NCBI GenBank assembly: GCA_015655045.1
Contig: JAATFU010000007.1
Span: 1 to 64,000, forward strand
Length of the DNA: 64,000 nt
DNA from: Candidatus Saccharimonadota bacterium
GTDB taxonomy: Bacteria; Patescibacteriota; Saccharimonadia; Saccharimonadales; Saccharimonadaceae
Direction: 5' to 3'
The notes under the pieces: generated by a model
Database searches by the model: none
Seen by the model: the letters and a program-made list of their open reading frames with translations, nothing else
Told to the model about the DNA's origin: nothing
Part shown: positions 9,666 to 25,439 of the stretch, one piece after another
How the letters are laid out: every line of letters begins with the position of its first letter
Numbering within the stretch: position 1 is the stretch's first letter
Made by a program: the position numbers and the translations under genes

Positions 9666-9757
9666 TTGGAGTTATGTTTGTTTTTGTAACTTTCGCTTAT
9701 TGGTACTTTACGGTATTTAGAGGAAAAGCACAAGTAGTTTAGCAAAAATAACAACAT

Positions 9758-9786
9758 TTGCATGCCGTGCGTGACGATTGTATACT
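9758..9786 (+). promoter_or_regulatory. promoter with leaderless start
   Basis: TTGCAT, 17-base spacer, TATACT, then 7 bases to the ATG at 9794. One of the clearest examples in the window where the start site must coincide with the start codon. Confidence 0.75.
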
Positions 9787-9793
9787 GCGAAGC

Positions 9794-10276
9794 ATGAGCT
9801 TCTTTGTACATACCACAGCCGCTCCTGCATATAAGACACCCGATGTGAAGCGAATCACGCTCCTATATGGGGGCATCTTGTTGGTTCTGGCGCTTTGCCA
9901 GCTCTTTAGTTTCGATGATTTTCTTAACCTGCTGGAGAGCTTTTGGCTACCAGGAGGGAGGCCACTTTCTAACTTGCTTGCGGGGCTGCTCGTAACGACT
10001 GAAATATTCGCGCTACCCTTCTTACTTCGTATGCGTCTCAGTCCTCTAGCACGAGTATTAAGTATGGTGCTGGGTTGGCTTGTGCCGCTTCTTTGGTGCG
10101 GTATTGCGTTGTGGCTGGTGCTGACCGTGAATGCGGTGACGAACATTGGATTTTTGGGTACTGTCGCGAAACTGACGCCTGGTTGGTGGGCAGTCTTTAT
10201 CAGTCTGGCACTTGGTCTTTTGGCCGCCTGGTCAAGCTGGGGCCTTTGGCCTATTGTTCGACGCACAAAGAAATAG
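9794..10276 (+). CDS. four-helix membrane protein, unknown
   Basis: 160 aa from the ATG at 9794, set by the promoter just upstream; the longer frame would start inside the -35. Hydrophobic segments lie at about residues 22-41, 60-80, 88-108 and 125-150. The layout resembles small DoxX/MauE-like membrane proteins, but I see no family signature. The following gene is also a membrane protein on the same strand. Confidence 0.6.
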   Translation: MSFFVHTTAAPAYKTPDVKRITLLYGGILLVLALCQLFSFDDFLNLLESFWLPGGRPLSNLLAGLLVTTEIFALPFLLRMRLSPLARVLSMVLGWLVPLLWCGIALWLVLTVNAVTNIGFLGTVAKLTPGWWAVFISLALGLLAAWSSWGLWPIVRRTKK

Positions 10277-10332
10277 TTGTTGTCTCTTTACAAGCAGGGT
10301 ATGATATAGCTATAACGAAGGAGTTCACATCT

Positions 10333-10875
10333 ATGGAAAGCATACAAAAACTTGAGAAGCGGCTTGCGGGATACTTCAAGCAACTACCCAATCTACCTCA
10401 AGCGGGTCGAACATGGCTAGCCGAGAATGTGTGGTGGTTAGCGCTGATAAGTGTGATTATATCGGCACTTAGCCTTGTCTATGCGCTTATCGGGGTAATT
10501 AGTCTGGTCGTATGGACAGCAACACCGGTGTTTTATGGCGCGTATTATTCAGCCACCGCTATAAGTGCTGCCTGGATAACCTCGGCTAGCCTTACGCTTC
10601 TCTTTGTGCTGGTGATTACCGTTCTTATGGCCCAAGCGGTTCCTTTCCTACGGACAATGCGCTATAGGGGATGGATGCTTCTATTTACGGTCTACCTTGT
10701 AAATGCTCTCAGAATAGTAGTCATGGCACTTCTCACTGGAAGCATTACTGGCTTTATTGCGGGTATTATCTTTGGTGCGATTGGCCTGGCCATTGTTGGG
10801 TACTTCTTGTTTCAGATTCGTTCATTCTTTGGAGCAGGCGAGAAGACTAGCCGTCGTATTTTGAAGAAGAAATAA
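10333..10875 (+). CDS. membrane protein with basic tail, unknown
   Basis: 180 aa from the ATG at 10333, where AAGGAG lies about 10 bases upstream; the longer frame runs through the previous gene and has no site. An amphipathic head (EKRLAGYFKQLPNLPQAGRTW) is followed by about four hydrophobic segments (roughly 33-58, 68-95, 105-128, 133-158) and the basic tail KTSRRILKKK, which suggests a cytosolic C-terminus. Not recognised. Confidence 0.6.
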   Translation: MESIQKLEKRLAGYFKQLPNLPQAGRTWLAENVWWLALISVIISALSLVYALIGVISLVVWTATPVFYGAYYSATAISAAWITSASLTLLFVLVITVLMAQAVPFLRTMRYRGWMLLFTVYLVNALRIVVMALLTGSITGFIAGIIFGAIGLAIVGYFLFQIRSFFGAGEKTSRRILKKK

Positions 10876-10926
10876 TAGCCACCTCTTGAGTAGATATCTT
10901 AATTAGTGTACAATTCATGATGCTAA

Positions 10927-11001
10927 TGGGATGTCGCCAAGTGGTAAGGCATCGGCTTTTGGTGCCGACATTCGGGGGTTCGAATCCCTCCATCCCAGCC
11001 A
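10927..11001 (+). tRNA. tRNA-Gln (anticodon TTG), CCA encoded
   Basis: Acceptor stem TGGGATG pairs with CATCCCA; D stem GCC/GGC; anticodon stem TCGGC/GCCGA with loop TTTTGGT giving TTG; T arm GGGGG-TTCGAAT-CCCTC; discriminator G then CCA. A complete cloverleaf. GatCAB, encoded at 57.6-61.1 kb, fits charging through Glu-tRNA-Gln. Confidence 0.97.
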
Positions 11002-11026
11002 AATTAGAATATAATAGATAAGATAT

Positions 11027-11530
11027 ATGAGTATTGAAGCGCCTACCATCGAAGCCTGGCCCACAGAATTTACTATCACGCCATCACAGATTGCGTTAGC
11101 CCATTTAGCGGTACGGAAAAATCAAGAGCTTGTTGGCACTAACACGTTCTCAAATATTTATGACACACAAGAAGACTTAGTGGGCCTAGAGCAAAATTAT
11201 ATTGCAGGTGGTGGTAATTTCTTCATTGCCACAACTGAAAACGGTGAACTTAAAGGTTTCGTCGGTTTACGAAATGATGGCGACGGAAATGCAACTCTCA
11301 AGCGACTAGCCGTATTACCCGAGTTCGAGGGACAAGGCGTAGGCAAGACTCTAGTTAGAAAGTTGATAGCTTGGGCTCGCGAGAATGGTTTTACGAAAAT
11401 CGCTCTACAAACAGGCGGTGACGAACAGGCTAAGGCAAGGATTTATAAAAAAGCCGGTTTTGTAGTAATAGGAACCGTACCAAAAGAGCACAAATCTGAT
11501 GAGTGGCTTATGGAATTGTCTTTAAGCTAG
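11027..11530 (+). CDS. GNAT family N-acetyltransferase
   Basis: 167 aa. GNAT fold with FFIATTENGELKGFVGLR (strands 2-4), the acetyl-CoA loop LPEFEGQGVGKTLVRKLIAWA near residues 97-117, and ARIYKKAGFVVIGTV near 143-157. Transfers an acetyl group from acetyl-CoA to an amine; substrate unknown. A TATAAT box at 11010 ends 11 bases upstream. First gene after the tRNA. Confidence 0.88.
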   Translation: MSIEAPTIEAWPTEFTITPSQIALAHLAVRKNQELVGTNTFSNIYDTQEDLVGLEQNYIAGGGNFFIATTENGELKGFVGLRNDGDGNATLKRLAVLPEFEGQGVGKTLVRKLIAWARENGFTKIALQTGGDEQAKARIYKKAGFVVIGTVPKEHKSDEWLMELSLS

Positions 11531-11593
11531 CTAATATTTGTAGGTAATGAGTTCTATAATCGTTCTTTATACCCAGCCAGATTCGACAATTAG

Positions 11594-11625
11594 AAATGAG
11601 ACACGTATGTGTCTCATTTGTTTTG
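11594..11625. terminator. bidirectional terminator
   Basis: AAATGAGACAC, loop GTAT, GTGTCTCATTT, then GTTTT. It lies between the GNAT gene and the convergent helicase gene. Confidence 0.8.
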
Positions 11626-11660
11626 AGCTAAAATTAAAAATACCTATCCCAAAACATCGG

Positions 11661-14375
11661 CTAGGCTTCTTTATTTCGACGTTTACGTATAGCTTGAAAT
11701 CCACATGCTTCTTGGAATTCATTCATGCTTCCGAACCTTCTGAATATTGTCGATTGGTTTGGAAATTCATTTCTATCGAGTTTCTTCATCCCTGTAACGC
11801 TCAGTGGTTTATCGGGACTCAATTGTAAGGCGAGGTCAACAATCTCCTGGTTTGTAAATGTTTGCCAATTTATGTTACTTATTACTTCAAATCCACAGGC
11901 TTTTTGAAAGTTAGTTAAGCTGCCAAATCGTTCTCTTATGAGATCGTAGCCGGGGAAAACGCTACGGTCTAAAGCGGCGATTGTCAATTGTGTCATAGCT
12001 TCCTCGGGGCTCACTTTTTTAGCAAGTTCTATCAGTTCTTCGTTCGTAAGCTTGCTCCAGATGTGCTTTCCATTAAATCCACATGCTTCATAAAACTCAT
12101 CGATTGATCCGAACTGACGCCTGATTAGGCTTTCCCCCGGAAAGGCACCCTTCTCCAGAGTTTTCCTTACTGATTTTGAAAGTGGTTCATTCGGACTTAA
12201 TTGTAAGGCGAGTGCTACGAGTTCTTCGTTGGATAGATTATGCCAATTTCTGAGCATATTGAATCCGCAGTTTTTATGAAACTCACCTAATGATCCAAAT
12301 CGTTCTACAACCATTGAGATGGGGGGAAATTCATCTCGACGAAGGATTTCTAAGTCACTCGTACGTAAGGGATTATTGGGGCTGATACTTAAAGCGAGAT
12401 CCACAATATCCTGATCACTGTAGCTAGCCCATTCAACTGTCTTGAAACCACATGCTTCATGAAACTCTTTCATTGACCCAAAGCGATTCTTAATTGTGCC
12501 CGCTGACGGAAACTCATCTCTACTCAGGGTATCCACATCTGGAACAAGTAATGGCTTATCTGGACTAAGTTGAAGCGCAAGCTGCACAATATCTTCGTTG
12601 CTGAAGTTTGGCCATCTCACAATATTAAAGCCGCAAGCTATCTGAAAATTTGTAATGTTTCCAAATCGATTCGTGATAACCTGCTCGGTCGGGAACTGCT
12701 CTCCGTTCATTGCTTTGATTTCATGGATGCCAATTGGCCTATCTGGGCTCAGCTCAAGTGCTAGTGTAACGATGTCGTCAGCAGTATATGTGCGCCAATT
12801 AGTTACCTCAAATCCACACGATTGTTGAAAATTACTCATTGATCCAAAGCGCTTATAAAGGTGAGTGATTCCTGGAAACTCGTCTCGAGCAGCCAATGCT
12901 TGAATAGCTGTGCTTCTGAGTGGCCGATCTGGACTAATACGTAAAGCTCTTTCTATAATTTCGTCTTCACTCACACTGAACCAGTTAGTTCGGTGCTCAT
13001 TTTCGGCGAGTCTCTTGTAGGCATCCAGCAAATCAATGATTTTCTTGTCAAAAACAAACAAATTACCTTCGTCGCCCATTTTAAAGGTAACGCCGTCATC
13101 TATTTTATCGAGTTGATCGTTCGATCCCTCTTTAAAGATCCTGGTCCATAGTTCTTCCAGCATCAGTAATCGATCGATATTTGCCACGAAATCCATAACA
13201 ACCACTTTGTTCTTTTTAGCATTTCTTCGTAGGCCTCTCCCGAGCTGTTGCTCGAAGACTGGCTTACTCTGTGTAGAACGCAAAAAAACGATTAAGCGTG
13301 CATCAGGTATATCCACGCCCTCGTTAAACATATCTCTCACTGTTATAGTTTCAAACTCACTCTCAACAAACCCCTTGAATGTCTCAAGTTGTTGTTGCTT
13401 TGGAAGCTCGGAGTGGTAACTCTCTCCATTTAATAGCTCTGCAATTTTGTCGCTATGTTCGATGTCTTCGCAAAAAACGATTGTTTTAACGGTTTCAACG
13501 CTATCTTCGATTCTGATCTGCTTCTGCATGTCTTTAATTTTCTGAACGATCTCTTCATTACGAATCTCGCTCTCGAATGCTGCTCTCAGTTCTCGTGTAG
13601 TTCTGGCATTAAAGCCGTTTTCAATAGCTTCTTTCGTGGTGTCATCCATCATAACGTTATAAACGACTTCCGCTAAATACTTTTCTTGTATTGCCTCAGG
13701 CAGTGTTTTGCTATAAAGCGGTTCACCAAAATGAAGCCGAATATCTCTTGTGTCCATACGATGTGGAGTTGCTGTAAGGCCGAGCTGGAATTGAGGTTGG
13801 AAATGATCAACAACCTTTTTGTATGTATCGGCCTCAATGTGGTGTGCTTCATCGTACACGATATAGTCATAGTAATCTTGAGGAAATTTATCAATACTTC
13901 TTACGAGTGATTGAAACGTCGTAAAGGTGATCTCGCTAGTGGGGAGCTGTTTTTGGCTTGAATTGTATCGGGATCGTCCCACATGTGGCAATAAGGCACC
14001 GAATCTATCACTTGCTTGCGAAAGTATATTACTACGGTGGACTACAAATAATGCACGAGGCTCGTGATCGACTGCCTGTTGTTCGGTGCGGAACTGTGCA
14101 TAGTCGAAGACTGCAATTGATGTTTTGCCGAGACCAGTCGCTAATCTAATGAGGCCTTTTTGGGCGCCGTCTTTGCGGGCCATGGATAGCATATTCCACG
14201 AGTCTAACTGGTAAGGGCGTGCTTCAAAGTCGGTAACCGCTCGGCGTTGTTCGGCTTGTTCTCCTAAGAAACGACCACCTACCTGTAGCTGATCAGAAAT
14301 AAAGGCACCTACTTTTGTGCGGTGCTCACTATTGACGATGACCTCTTTAGGATCTTCTCCATCGGGCATTTTCAT
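11661..14375 (-). CDS. SF2 DEAD/DEAH-type helicase with seven C-terminal repeats
   Basis: 904 aa. The first half is a superfamily 2 helicase: Walker A ATGLGKTS near residue 79, DEAH box YDEAHH near 175, LTATP near 200, and motif VI QQLGRGLRR near 380. From about residue 455 to the end there are seven tandem units of about 62 residues, each ending in a consensus like FP...I..RFGS...F..ACGF and beginning with a helix like NEELVALALQLSP. They resemble the homing-endonuclease-associated repeat (HNH_repeat), which I take to be DNA-binding. The ATG follows a TATAGT box at 14385-14390 by 9 bases. Likely role: DNA translocase with sequence recognition, possibly defence or mobile-element related; inference only. 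Confidence 0.85.
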   Translation of the reverse strand: MKMPDGEDPKEVIVNSEHRTKVGAFISDQLQVGGRFLGEQAEQRRAVTDFEARPYQLDSWNMLSMARKDGAQKGLIRLATGLGKTSIAVFDYAQFRTEQQAVDHEPRALFVVHRSNILSQASDRFGALLPHVGRSRYNSSQKQLPTSEITFTTFQSLVRSIDKFPQDYYDYIVYDEAHHIEADTYKKVVDHFQPQFQLGLTATPHRMDTRDIRLHFGEPLYSKTLPEAIQEKYLAEVVYNVMMDDTTKEAIENGFNARTTRELRAAFESEIRNEEIVQKIKDMQKQIRIEDSVETVKTIVFCEDIEHSDKIAELLNGESYHSELPKQQQLETFKGFVESEFETITVRDMFNEGVDIPDARLIVFLRSTQSKPVFEQQLGRGLRRNAKKNKVVVMDFVANIDRLLMLEELWTRIFKEGSNDQLDKIDDGVTFKMGDEGNLFVFDKKIIDLLDAYKRLAENEHRTNWFSVSEDEIIERALRISPDRPLRSTAIQALAARDEFPGITHLYKRFGSMSNFQQSCGFEVTNWRTYTADDIVTLALELSPDRPIGIHEIKAMNGEQFPTEQVITNRFGNITNFQIACGFNIVRWPNFSNEDIVQLALQLSPDKPLLVPDVDTLSRDEFPSAGTIKNRFGSMKEFHEACGFKTVEWASYSDQDIVDLALSISPNNPLRTSDLEILRRDEFPPISMVVERFGSLGEFHKNCGFNMLRNWHNLSNEELVALALQLSPNEPLSKSVRKTLEKGAFPGESLIRRQFGSIDEFYEACGFNGKHIWSKLTNEELIELAKKVSPEEAMTQLTIAALDRSVFPGYDLIRERFGSLTNFQKACGFEVISNINWQTFTNQEIVDLALQLSPDKPLSVTGMKKLDRNEFPNQSTIFRRFGSMNEFQEACGFQAIRKRRNKEA

Positions 14376-14504
14376 AATGAATATACTATAGCATAATTAT
14401 CAGTTATAAGCAATATTTGATAGTGTCGTCTAGCGTATCTCATCCTCATCCGTAAATCCGTATTAGACCCACAAGCTCAGCCACGATATATTCGAACCAA
14501 AGTC

Positions 14505-14537
14505 AAATAAGTATTCACGCTATGTGAATACTTATTT
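14505..14537. repeat. perfect 14-bp inverted repeat
   Basis: AAATAAGTATTCAC, loop GCTAT, GTGAATACTTATTT. It lies 130 bases upstream of the helicase start. It could be a terminator for either side or an operator; the weak T tail does not decide it. Confidence 0.7.
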
Positions 14538-14580
14538 TATGTTATAGTAATTTTGCCGATGCGAGCCGTACTTTACTGGA

Positions 14581-14820
14581 GTGATTCAAGATAACCGTAG
14601 CGGAGACAACATTGGCAACGCTTTTGCAGATGCGCGTACTGCTGTAGAGACATCTCATGTCGAATCGTTTTTTGGAAAAATCGCATTCGGGATTGCAAGC
14701 CCCGACCCATGTAAGGGCACCTTCGGGTAGCAGCAAGGCATGATGGCCAATAAAGGAAGTAAAGCAGGGCTTTCGTGCAACATTATCCAAAAAGCGTCCC
14801 GGGATCATGATACGCTCTGA
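14581..14820 (+). pseudogene. possible decayed gene with in-frame stop
   Basis: One frame runs 80 codons from a GTG at 14581 to TGA at 14818 with a single TAG at 14728. Translations either side (NIGNAFADARTAVETS and NKGSKAGLSCNIIQKAS) look protein-like. An upstream TATAGT box (about 14542) and ATG at 14559 fit the local leaderless start pattern but are one base out of frame. I do not recognise the family; a non-coding RNA is the alternative. Confidence 0.25.
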
Positions 14821-21424: not shown

Positions 21425-23056
21425 CTAGGAAGGTATATTCTTCGAATAAGTTTTAAGGAATTTCTTTTGATCAGTGTGGGTTATGATGCTCTGCTGAGCC
21501 GATTCTCGTATTGGATCAAAGACTTCTTTGAAAAAGATATTATCCGTCTCGATGAAGATCGCACTATCTCTGAAGAACTGGATTGCCTGATTAATATGTG
21601 TAAGTGTGAGATTAGAAAGTAAAGTCAGTCCAGTGTGCCAAAAAGTAGTTTGGAGTTGTTGGATAAGCTCGGATAAGCTATACGTACCAGGTTGAGTTTT
21701 AGCTTGCTTGAGCAAAAAGGCAACCACAAAGCTTATATGGCCACGTGTGAGATCTTCTACCCAGTCGTGTATATCATCGTTAAGCTGTCTTGCGATGAGG
21801 TAGTGGTCAAGGCTGTGCTCGATAAGCTGGCAGGTTGATTCGGGTATGCTCTTATCAAGAAGCATAAGAATAGTCGGACCTAGAAGGTGTGCGCTCGCTC
21901 TTCGTGCGAGAATTTCACCCTCACCATATAAAGGCAACTCTTTCACTGTAATCTTGTCTTTTCTGACGTCGTATCGGCAATGAGCTAACTCCCAGGCATT
22001 GGCTATGTCCATATCGGTAAATGACTGTCGAATCACTAATCGGATAGAAGGGGAGTCGTCTACTTCTTGATAGTGCCAAAGACTTGCTCGGTGGGCGTAG
22101 TTTGCCACTGGCAGGAATGAGGGCTCTCCTTCTTCGTCTATAAAGTCATCATAAATTGTGTAGGCCATCCAAGTATAAAAGTTAGCCGTCCCTAATCGTT
22201 CGCATGCCGTATCGGTTAGTAGTTTTGAGGGATGCTTTAATGAGCGTTTAAAAAACAAAGGCAGGTGAGTTATTTCGTGTCTTGTATCGGCTTTTACGAC
22301 CGACTGCCATACTTGTAAGGCTTTCGATTGAAGTGGCTCTTGCAGTACGCTCAGCTCTCGCTCTACTTGGCGCATCACTGTATTTTGAGCCGTCCTAGCA
22401 GTTGCCCGTGCTTGGGGCTTCGTGAATGGTTCGCTATTAAGTAGACAGACAGCGATTGCCGTAATCGTAAGAGAGGTGAGATCGTGACTTGCGCTCCAAC
22501 TTCCGTTGGGTTGTTGAGCCTTTGGAAGGTGAGCGAGATAGTCTGATTTGATCGGATTTTTGAGAAGACGAGAAGGCCATGAGACTGCCCATAGCGTCAA
22601 GGGATCTGTAAGGATTTGAGAATTTGTATAAGCGATATGTTGCACGAAATCCACAAGATGTGGCAAGGGACTACCAAAAGCAGTAAATAACTGGGCGAGT
22701 AGGGCATTGGCCAAGAGTTCTGGCGAGTGACCCGGCTCGGCATACGGGCCACCGACAGCTTGTTCGGTACGGAGAAGTCGAGCTGCGAGTTGAGCTAGCC
22801 CTGTCCCATCAAGTATGGTCGGGTCATACATATGGAGAGCTAATAATCGTAGAGCCATCTCCTGGAGCTCAACCGTATCAATCCATTTCCAGTCATTCCC
22901 TCGAAGCTGCTGGGTGAGCCGAGGGGGTACAGCGGGTCGTATGCCAGACGATTGAGCAAGCGCGAGTACCAATAAAGCTGCTTCTTGGTCACTTACCGTA
23001 GGCTCAAAAACACAACTCTTAAGATACCGGAGGGCGTTGTCGATAGATAACGGCAT
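21425..23056 (-). CDS. terpenoid-synthase / prenyltransferase-like two-domain protein
   Basis: 543 aa. The ATG at 23056 is preferred: it follows the kinase stop by one base and has GAAGGG 9 bases upstream; a longer frame starts inside the kinase gene. Residues about 20-220 look like an alpha/alpha toroid (repeats such as GGPYAEPGHSPELLANAL and QQPNGSW), as in terpene cyclase beta domains. Residues about 280-500 look like an all-helical class I isoprenoid synthase with DDFIDEE at 303-309 and a second acidic motif QLNDDIHDWVEDL at 424-436. No class II DxDD motif is visible. It would act on prenyl diphosphates, product unknown. Last gene of a two-component operon. Confidence 0.65.
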   Translation of the reverse strand: MPLSIDNALRYLKSCVFEPTVSDQEAALLVLALAQSSGIRPAVPPRLTQQLRGNDWKWIDTVELQEMALRLLALHMYDPTILDGTGLAQLAARLLRTEQAVGGPYAEPGHSPELLANALLAQLFTAFGSPLPHLVDFVQHIAYTNSQILTDPLTLWAVSWPSRLLKNPIKSDYLAHLPKAQQPNGSWSASHDLTSLTITAIAVCLLNSEPFTKPQARATARTAQNTVMRQVERELSVLQEPLQSKALQVWQSVVKADTRHEITHLPLFFKRSLKHPSKLLTDTACERLGTANFYTWMAYTIYDDFIDEEGEPSFLPVANYAHRASLWHYQEVDDSPSIRLVIRQSFTDMDIANAWELAHCRYDVRKDKITVKELPLYGEGEILARRASAHLLGPTILMLLDKSIPESTCQLIEHSLDHYLIARQLNDDIHDWVEDLTRGHISFVVAFLLKQAKTQPGTYSLSELIQQLQTTFWHTGLTLLSNLTLTHINQAIQFFRDSAIFIETDNIFFKEVFDPIRESAQQSIITHTDQKKFLKTYSKNIPS

Positions 23057-23057
23057 T

Positions 23058-24503
23058 CTAACGACCCTTCGAACTATATCGAGGTAAGGTAATAATAAAT
23101 CGAGTATATTCTCTACTTGGATCAAGGGAGATAGTGCCCTTAAAGTGGGTTTCGATCATACTTTTTGCAATAAATAGACCAATACCCATACCATTTTTCT
23201 TGCTGCTCTGAAACGGCGTAAAAAGTTGTTGACGTATATTATCAGGTATTCCCTGTCCGTCATCTGTGATCATAATTTCAACGGTTGTTTGGGTGATGTG
23301 TGTTGCAATAAAGACCGTGGGTTCAGCAAACGAGGTGGGCGCTTCGCCATATGCTTCAATGGCATTCGTGATAATAATGGTAAGGATCTGTGAAAGACGT
23401 AGTGCGTCACCATTTCCTAAAATTGCCTTTTGTCCTGTCGGTTTTTTATAATGAAGACTAACCTGAACTTTAGCGGCCATCGTACTGAGATTTGTCACTA
23501 CTTCATCGACAGCGGTGAGGATATTAAACACATTTGATGCGCTGGTTTCCTGTAATTGGTGGCGTACCTGACCGACCATATTATCAAGGTGGGTGATGCT
23601 CTCTCGCGCATGTGAAATTGCTTTGGTACGATGATTACGCTGTTGAATATCATCAATATCAAGGGTGAGGACCGTCAGGTGATTAGCAAGTTCATGAAGG
23701 AGCGCAGTACTTTGTTGACCCAGTTCGGCGAAACGGTACAATTGACGCATCTCTTCAAGTTGAGATTCGCGAAGATATCGAGTTTGTTCCTCTAATCGAA
23801 CGGCCAATAAATCTTTTTCGGATTGGAGCGCCGCTTCGGCAACGAGAGCCTTTTGTAAAGATTGTTCCATCTGACGTCCCGATAACCATGAGATGAGTGC
23901 AAAAACAGCAAAGATAGTACTATAACTGACAACATCACCAAACCCCGAAGCTATAGCAAGTGAACTATAGTCAGGATGAACAATACCAAGCCTACTTGCA
24001 AGTTGGAGAAACGAAAGAAGCCCTATAACGACAATTGTTACAGGGATAATATAGCGTGCCCCAAGCATAACTCCTGCAAGCACAATAATAAAACCGAGTA
24101 CTAAAATGCCAATAGGGGCATTAATACTCCACATTAATAAGATGAGACTTGCAAGACCGACGTATAGGGCAATGAGCATCCACGCAGCCGACATGATATG
24201 GGCCCTGTGTATAAGAATCTTGATACAGACAAGGTAAAGAACGGCACCCAGACATAAAAAAATACGATTGGCTACATAGGCATTACCAGCGACGAAGAAG
24301 CTAAAACTAAGGAGAATCAATAGGAGGCTGACGACAAAAAAGGTTCCGCGAAAAATTATTGTAACAATAGCCTGCTTGCCCTGGAGCAACTGAACAGCTG
24401 CTAACCGACGGGTATAGCTTGCAAGGAATTGAGGCGCAACAAAAAGCCGAGCAACGAATCGGTTTCTTGTACGTGGCACAGCTTTTGTTGCGGATGTACT
24501 CAT
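23058..24503 (-). CDS. membrane sensor histidine kinase
   Basis: 481 aa. The N-terminal about 215 residues hold six to seven hydrophobic helices without an extracellular loop domain, suggesting sensing in or at the membrane. A coiled coil (about 215-250) leads to the phosphoacceptor region TALLHELANHLTVL, then the ATPase domain: N box IIITNAIEAYG, G1 ITDDGQGIPD, G2 GMGIGLFIAKSM. It phosphorylates itself and then a response regulator, very likely the product of the 24653 gene. The start is 7 bases after the stop of a 38-aa ORF. Confidence 0.93.
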   Translation of the reverse strand: MSTSATKAVPRTRNRFVARLFVAPQFLASYTRRLAAVQLLQGKQAIVTIIFRGTFFVVSLLLILLSFSFFVAGNAYVANRIFLCLGAVLYLVCIKILIHRAHIMSAAWMLIALYVGLASLILLMWSINAPIGILVLGFIIVLAGVMLGARYIIPVTIVVIGLLSFLQLASRLGIVHPDYSSLAIASGFGDVVSYSTIFAVFALISWLSGRQMEQSLQKALVAEAALQSEKDLLAVRLEEQTRYLRESQLEEMRQLYRFAELGQQSTALLHELANHLTVLTLDIDDIQQRNHRTKAISHARESITHLDNMVGQVRHQLQETSASNVFNILTAVDEVVTNLSTMAAKVQVSLHYKKPTGQKAILGNGDALRLSQILTIIITNAIEAYGEAPTSFAEPTVFIATHITQTTVEIMITDDGQGIPDNIRQQLFTPFQSSKKNGMGIGLFIAKSMIETHFKGTISLDPSREYTRFIITLPRYSSKGR

Positions 24504-24510
24504 GGGAGTA

Positions 24511-24627
24511 TTATTCTACGTTGTACCAAGGGGTACCAGCGATACTGGTTTGTAAGAGATGAGCTTCGACGACTGCACTCTTACGAGCATCTGCATCCGT
24601 TAGGATGGTGTGGAGTATATCAATCAT
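24511..24627 (-). CDS. 38-aa ORF between response regulator and kinase
   Basis: ATG at 24627 to TAA at 24511, starting MIDILHTILTDADARKSAV and ending SIAGTPWYNVE. AGAAAGG lies 8-9 bases before the ATG, and spacing to both neighbours is tight (25 and 7 bases), so it fits in one operon. No cysteine, no signal peptide, no membrane helix. It might be a regulatory peptide, a leader coupling kinase translation, or a precursor; no family recognised. Confidence 0.5.
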   Translation of the reverse strand: MIDILHTILTDADARKSAVVEAHLLQTSIAGTPWYNVE

Positions 24628-24652
24628 AACAATTGGACCTTTCTTGTATTAA

Positions 24653-25330
24653 TTATTTAGGCACATCGACCCGATATCCAAGACCGTACGCAGTCTTTAT
24701 AAGTGATGAGTGAAAGGGACGATCTATCTTGTCTCGAAGGTGTTTAATATGTACATCAACGGTACTGTTCCAACTTGTTTTGCTAGAGTCCCAGGCGTGA
24801 TCGATAATCATCTCTCGTGTCAGTACCCTCCCCCGATTGCTAACGAGGTATTCTAATATGTCGAATTCTTTGCGGCGTAGATCAATCGGTGTGCCGGCTC
24901 GTACAACTGTTCGTCGCTCGGTGTCGATGACGAGGTCCTGATAGACAAGAGCGGGCTTTGCGATGTGAAGCGGTTGCCGGCGAGCAAGGGCTGCGATACG
25001 GGCACGTAGTTCGTCGCTATCAAAGGGCTTGGTTAAGTAATCATCTGCACCGGCATCAAGAAGTTGCACACGTGAGGTTACCTCGTCGACACCGGTCAAA
25101 ATTAATATCGGGGTATCTAGCTTTAATTCTTCACGGAGGCGCTTACAGACAGTCAGTCCGGGCATGTCAGGAAGTCCAAGGTCAAGCACAATAACACCAT
25201 ATCGAGTCTCAGCGGCTTTGGTAAGTGCTCCCTCACCCGTAGTGGTCACATCAACAAGATAGAGCTTTGTAAGCTGGTATTTAAGACGCTCTGCTAGTCG
25301 TTCGTTATCTTCAACAAGGAGCAATTTCAT
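24653..25330 (-). CDS. OmpR-family response regulator
   Basis: 225 aa. Receiver domain with phosphorylation site VIVLDLGLPDMPG (Asp near residue 51) and LTKPFDSDEL (Lys near 101); C-terminal winged helix with LRRKEFDILEYLVSNRGRVLTRE and STVDVHIKHLRDKI. First gene of the operon with the 38-aa ORF, kinase and terpenoid-synthase-like gene. A TATAAT box at 25339-25344 ends 8 bases before the ATG (leaderless). Confidence 0.95.
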   Translation of the reverse strand: MKLLLVEDNERLAERLKYQLTKLYLVDVTTTGEGALTKAAETRYGVIVLDLGLPDMPGLTVCKRLREELKLDTPILILTGVDEVTSRVQLLDAGADDYLTKPFDSDELRARIAALARRQPLHIAKPALVYQDLVIDTERRTVVRAGTPIDLRRKEFDILEYLVSNRGRVLTREMIIDHAWDSSKTSWNSTVDVHIKHLRDKIDRPFHSSLIKTAYGLGYRVDVPK

Positions 25331-25439
25331 ATACTATCATTATACCTACTTATGTTAGTCTCAGTGTATATCAGAGTTCTTAAATAATTATGAACTATTT
25401 CACCAATTACTCACCAAAAGGTACCGATGTGTCCATTGA

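Follow-up and report, generated by a model that had tools for sequence, protein, structure and literature searches.

ComQXPA of Bacillus consists of four adjacent genes encoding an isoprenoid-synthase-fold enzyme (ComQ), a short peptide with a tryptophan (Trp) near its C-terminus (ComX), a multi-span histidine kinase (ComP) and a response regulator (ComA), and both the peptide tail and the sensor region are variable (PMC4008528, PMC5331326). In a 2014 census, ComQXPA-like loci occurred in Firmicutes only (PMC4008528). Further precedents for the chemistry are PalQ-PalX-PalP of Paenibacillus alvei, where a Trp prenyltransferase of the isoprenoid-synthase superfamily and a precursor with a C-terminal Trp are clustered with a histidine kinase (PMC10853753), and the ChrPC/NctPC maturases, likened here by description only, in which prenyltransferase and cyclase domains are fused in one protein acting on a peptide Trp (PMC13290415). 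Here we describe an operon of four such genes on the minus strand of a 64,000-nucleotide stretch from a Candidatus Saccharimonadota bacterium (contig JAATFU010000007.1, positions 1 to 64,000; hereafter the window), which we consider likely to be a tryptophan-prenylated peptide autoinducer circuit, ComQXPA-like in its working. Our literature search returned no paper that joins ComX or ComQ with Saccharibacteria, or prenyl signalling with Patescibacteria.

The operon encodes, in order of transcription, an OmpR/PhoB-type response regulator of 225 amino acids (aa; 24653-25330; Pfam Response_reg 1.4e-24, Trans_reg_C 9.2e-25), a 38-aa precursor peptide (MIDILHTILTDADARKSAVVEAHLLQTSIAGTPWYNVE; 24511-24627), a 481-aa membrane histidine kinase (23058-24503; H-box HELANHL; HATPase_c 2.9e-19) and a 543-aa two-domain enzyme (21425-23056), for which we propose ComA-, ComX-, ComP- and ComQ-like roles, respectively. 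An earlier note on this DNA, made from its letters without database searches, had described four same-strand open reading frames (ORFs) forming one operon with gaps of 25, 7 and 1 bases, and the coordinates agree with it throughout. It had also proposed a leaderless promoter; a -10-like TATAAT (25339-25344) lies 8 nt ahead of the regulator ATG, a placement compatible with a leaderless or near-leaderless operon transcript. The -35 region is poor, from which we infer that the promoter may depend on an activator.

Unlike in ComQXPA, the regulator gene comes first and the enzyme gene last, the regulator is of the OmpR and not the LuxR type, the kinase has HisKA/HATPase and not HisKA_3 domains, the enzyme is a cyclase-prenyltransferase fusion and not a single-domain ComQ, the peptide is unrelated to ComX in sequence, and the host belongs to the Patescibacteria and not to the Firmicutes. 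Judged by domain families, the system is not a member of ComQXPA, as PF00348, PF05952, PF07730 and PF00196 all went unmatched. With respect to the Pal cluster, PalX differs from the window peptide in its NHLP-type leader and terminal Trp, no cyclase fusion is described for PalQ, and no response regulator is listed (PMC10853753). Unlike ChrPC/NctPC, as far as their description goes, the enzyme here is part of a sensor operon and many of its copies lack the cyclase motif.

The gene order is conserved well beyond the window. A degenerate-peptide scan found two relatives, in Saccharibacteria 47-87 and UBA7683, whose four genes are arranged as in the window, and profile searches gave 24 matches in 393 genomes of the class, 23 of which were accepted, and 20 matches, some of them weak, in 380 genomes across the phylum. 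Only two weak matches were counted, L105 (genome G718) and L109 (G750), both with all four parts, and those in G016 (E 5e-4, several stops), G727 (N-domain only) and G696 were left unused. Altogether, regulator, peptide, kinase and enzyme follow each other on one strand at 27 loci in Saccharibacteria and other Patescibacteria; because the order recurs across the phylum, a chance origin of the cluster is excluded. Two outcomes would have refuted the earlier note, a gene order unconserved in relatives and a predicted structure lacking the isoprenoid-synthase fold, and neither occurred. One further locus is rearranged (L048, G088:C5, 4650-9471): one strand holds a HisKA-type kinase, the peptide and a polyprenyl synthase, and the cyclase-prenyltransferase gene runs divergently on the opposite strand. 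The first 60 relatives searched included 27 congeners of the window genome, none of which has the system; it is rare in this genus, and gain or loss is therefore frequent. A tblastn search of plasmids with a long-form enzyme gave no match.

The 38-aa ORF, which the earlier note had merely counted, encodes a precursor peptide that is conserved and has an invariant Trp near its C-terminus. A short peptide ORF of 22-40 aa is present at all 35 loci. Most of these ORFs measure 34-40 aa; the three exceptions are those of the two most divergent loci, L105 and L109, at 22 and 27 aa, and of the rearranged L048, at 32 aa. Trp lies 2-7 residues from the C-terminus in 35 of 35 peptides (for part of the second locus set it was demanded by the search, others were read by eye from translations, and several starts were picked by hand among in-frame ATGs). 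By our own count, 33 of the 35 contain PW, followed by one to six variable residues, and most share the leader [IL]LTDxxxR; the shared leader and the C-terminal PW were already visible in regulator-kinase gap ORFs listed without any sequence or Trp filter. Among background short ORFs of the same loci with a Shine-Dalgarno-like motif, 14% have a Trp in the last seven residues and 0.6% a PW near the end. The peptides are most alike at PW (pairwise identity 0.91), less so in the leader (0.38) and least in the residues that follow the Trp (0.12). Each peptide ORF has its own ATG start and, at most loci, a Shine-Dalgarno-like sequence. In the window, the proposed acceptor is Trp34 (codon 24528-24526) within a putative core GTPWYNVE (24514-24537), proposed from the conservation profile. 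The peptides matched no Pfam or NCBIfam family, and the ComX precursor family PF05952 matched 0 of 19; a PF05952 search of the window's own genome and 14 control genomes gave no match anywhere, controls included, and is thus uninformative on the absence of ComX. L105 (8130-8969, minus strand) and L109 (6209-7114, minus strand) have unusual short Trp peptides, MSKQETETTPAEDNSPGTPWRS and MNTLEQIVLAPTEEALIQTEEQWLPWY, and their single-domain enzymes of 279-301 aa are the most ComQ-like in size.

The enzyme itself had no Pfam or NCBIfam match above threshold, and in PDB phmmer found nothing beyond a weak prenylcyclase match. Its AlphaFold2 model, based on 23 sequences, has a mean pLDDT of 88 and a pTM of 0.80; in a Foldseek search of PDB the model matched trans-prenyl diphosphate synthases best (best E 1.5e-4), and also the Trp farnesyltransferase Ord1 (E 5.7e-3). 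On this model, the C-domain is predicted to have a class I isoprenoid-synthase (trans-prenyltransferase) fold with the first Asp-rich motif (D303-D-F-I-D307; 22136-22150), of which D303 and D307 are invariant in an alignment of 23 relatives, as are Q424, D427, D428, D431 and W432 of the second motif (Q424-L-N-D-D-I-H-D-W432; 21761-21787). The Gln, three residues ahead of the first Asp, forms a Gln-x-x-Asp that corresponds to Q216/D219 of Ord1 and matches the Trp-recognition Gln described for ComQ, PalQ and ChrPC (PMC13290415); Q424 is not discriminating, as the prenyl synthases aligned here carry Gln at the same place. Over its N-terminal part, the enzyme-family profile aligns with the drimenol synthase class II domain (9mhs, E 8e-12). 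Like drimenol synthase (PDB 9mhs, 9m7d), the long forms have a DxDD region and DGSWP-like repeats; its class II domain is, by the PDB names, fused to a haloacid-dehalogenase domain and not to a prenyltransferase. The N-domains of 20 of 35 relatives carry DxDD (DLDDT-like), a motif lacking in the window protein, whose class II cyclase-like domain spans approximately residues 1-210 (22427-23056) in the profile alignment. Model fold and profile match together bear out the earlier reading of this gene as a two-domain isoprenoid-synthase-like protein.

All 28 aligned regulators have Response_reg and Trans_reg_C, and the LuxR-type domain PF00196 was unmatched in every one of them. HisKA was found in 17 of 31 related kinases, and HisKA_3 (PF07730) was not among the families matched by the 31. 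As had been noted before, the kinase N-terminus is hydrophobic, with about six to seven membrane segments and no obvious extracytoplasmic domain. Kinase pairwise identity is 0.26 in the membrane region as against 0.37 in DHp and 0.38 in the catalytic domain, so that the variable parts of the system are the kinase membrane region and the peptide tail, as in ComP and ComX (PMC4008528).

A TTAAK-N6-TTAAB direct repeat lies ahead of the regulator gene at 17 of 30 loci (shuffles: mean 0.29, maximum 3), and no spacing other than its 11-bp period is enriched there. OmpR/PhoB-type regulators bind direct repeats with an 11-bp period. In 14 genomes that have the system, a stricter box had 93 matches and its reversed control 12; in 24 genomes lacking the system the counts were 59 and 94. 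Genome-wide enrichment of the box is confined to genomes that have the system. Leads among the box-linked genes are coiled-coil proteins (G070, G360), a PilB-like ATPase (L198), a RadC-like protein (L201) and a second regulator (L204), all names except coiled-coil having been assigned by eye. The coiled-coil proteins (L165-L169 in G070; L175 and L178 in G360) are small and related, each with a TTAAK-N6-TTAAB box ahead. The regulon claim is weakest for the window genome, which has only two exact boxes elsewhere (L205, L206) and, at the operon, a candidate with one mismatch (TTCAT-N6-TTAAG; 25394-25379, minus strand). An exact TTGGTGA-N4-TTGGTGA repeat with the same 11-bp period (25400-25417, minus strand) is local to the window genome and its sole exact copy there; TTGGTGA was rejected as a regulon marker, showing no enrichment over the reversed control.

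Only one of the recurrent neighbour families has a plausible metabolic connection, a polyprenyl diphosphate synthase that occurs in or beside the locus in seven lineages; at L036, L044 and L050 its gene overlaps that of the enzyme, and at L094 it sits between the regulator and peptide genes. Genome-wide, such a synthase is present in 21 of 23 enzyme-bearing genomes and in 104 of 370 others. The window genome has a carotenoid-type cluster (L064, G000:C6:2000-21900; 9752-14589, plus strand) of a polyprenyl synthase resembling geranylgeranyl diphosphate (GGPP) synthase, a phytoene synthase, an Amino_oxidase-family desaturase-like protein and then a UbiA protein. HMG-CoA reductase and IspH were found in 0 of 23 genomes with the system (control genomes were positive), and IDI-2 gave no match above the cut-off. 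Because the first two were not found, isoprenoid precursors are probably external; going by these two pathway markers, the genomes may obtain them from outside. The little isoprenoid metabolism assumed in the earlier note fits the two enzymes that were not found and does not fit the carotenoid cluster with its GGPP-synthase-like gene.

From the computed gene order, conserved peptide and Trp, folds, motifs, prenyl synthase linkage and repeat box we infer prenylation, processing, export, sensing and autoinduction as follows. The first Asp-rich motif of the 543-aa enzyme would hold a prenyl diphosphate, whose chain the enzyme would pass on to the Trp close to the C-terminus of the 38-aa peptide. 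In those relatives whose DxDD is intact, the class II domain would probably cyclise the attached chain; the window copy has lost the motif, and its chain is probably left linear. After trimming of the leader, the modified C-terminal part would leave the cell and be sensed by the membrane kinase, which would phosphorylate the OmpR-type regulator, and this in turn would bind a direct repeat with an 11-bp period ahead of its own operon and of further genes.

Several results weigh against such a circuit. Neither PF00348 (0 of 23 members) nor any ComQ model is matched by the enzyme family, and hhalign of the family against prenyl synthases gave a probability of only 34% (E 4e-4), with the second Asp-rich motifs aligned. 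The pseudo-second Asp-rich motif (pseudo-SARM) of Bacillus ComQ is N/GDxxx (PMC5331326), a rule that the Q-x-N-DDxxD of the enzyme, more PalQ-like, does not clearly follow. The operon contains no exporter or protease. Two genomes with the system, G115 and G144, yielded no prenyl synthase, and the p-value for the prenyl synthase association (1.4e-9) comes from Fisher tests that ignore phylogeny. The box-linked genes are heterogeneous and have as yet no shared function. Finally, the sensor pair is missing in three loci of genus g8 (L038, L045, L053), where no kinase or regulator gene adjoins the paired peptide and enzyme genes and an orthologous kinase was not found in the genome; that peptide and enzyme have stayed paired there also counts in favour of the proposed circuit. 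These genomes may have lost the receptor, or may use another one; in the former case they are possible signal producers.

The same three loci speak for a rival with the same chemistry and another purpose, namely a lipidated ribosomally synthesised and post-translationally modified peptide (RiPP), antimicrobial or host-directed, whose two-component pair merely senses the product for self-induced production or immunity. Fused prenyltransferase-cyclase RiPP maturases have indeed been described (PMC13290415). However, among the recurrent neighbours of the locus there is no transporter, protease or immunity gene, and the only non-syntenic biosynthetic one is the prenyl synthase; kinase and regulator are kept in most loci, and the box is present elsewhere in genomes with the system, so that we regard a RiPP of this kind as unlikely. 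It seems very improbable that the enzyme product is a small diffusible terpenoid to which the kinase responds, with the short ORF as a translational leader or regulatory peptide. Domains resembling class II and class I terpene synthases, and the prenyl synthase adjoining in several loci, would suit this idea, but a leader peptide needs no invariant C-terminal Trp, and the ORF has translation signals of its own and stays beside the enzyme where the sensor genes are absent. Least credible of all is the model of the earlier note, in which a membrane polyprenyl lipid, processed by the product of the last gene, is what the kinase detects and DedA and PAP2 proteins act on the same carriers: it draws on the multi-span kinase without an outer domain and on the DedA and PAP2 genes adjoining the operon in the window, but it gives the conserved peptide no role, and the invariant Trp of that peptide points to peptide prenylation and not to the detection of a membrane lipid, which found no support.

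Neither neighbour was retained as a functional partner. PAP2 genes occur beside the window operon and the orphan loci only, within the same family (a more distant PAP2-like match in L043 lies elsewhere), in related genomes at apparently the same chromosomal place, sensor-less ones included, and their adjacency is probably just a shared chromosomal position; DedA-type genes are sporadic.

If the favoured autoinducer circuit is real, a phylum-wide family would suggest that ultra-small bacteria signal to each other, with signalling linked to isoprenoid supply. Many ultra-small Patescibacteria are thought to be host-attached, and most are uncultured; peptides and enzymes could nevertheless be made and tested in E. 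coli. The loci also provide a large new set of candidate Trp prenyltransferase-cyclase fusions. More tentatively, and leaning slightly to doubt, we consider that Patescibacteria may communicate by terpenoid-peptide hybrids, the long-form enzymes prenylating Trp and their class II domain cyclising the chain to give a polycyclic terpene-peptide autoinducer. As the searches for HMG-CoA reductase and IspH came up empty, such a signal may use isoprenoid precursors from the host or surroundings, which would tie communication to the state of their source.

Among the other genes nearby, a MazE/AbrB-type antitoxin-like gene lies just downstream of the window operon (21342-21088, minus strand), and no toxin gene was noticed adjoining it. 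Near the operon in Saccharibacteria 47-87 (L001, 12559-17339, plus strand) are cytochrome oxidase-operon-like genes, the last encoding a haem O synthase-like UbiA protein, all identified by eye only. Upstream of the window operon, a 206-aa membrane protein (26060-25440, minus strand) has a weak DUF1345 match (E 0.02).

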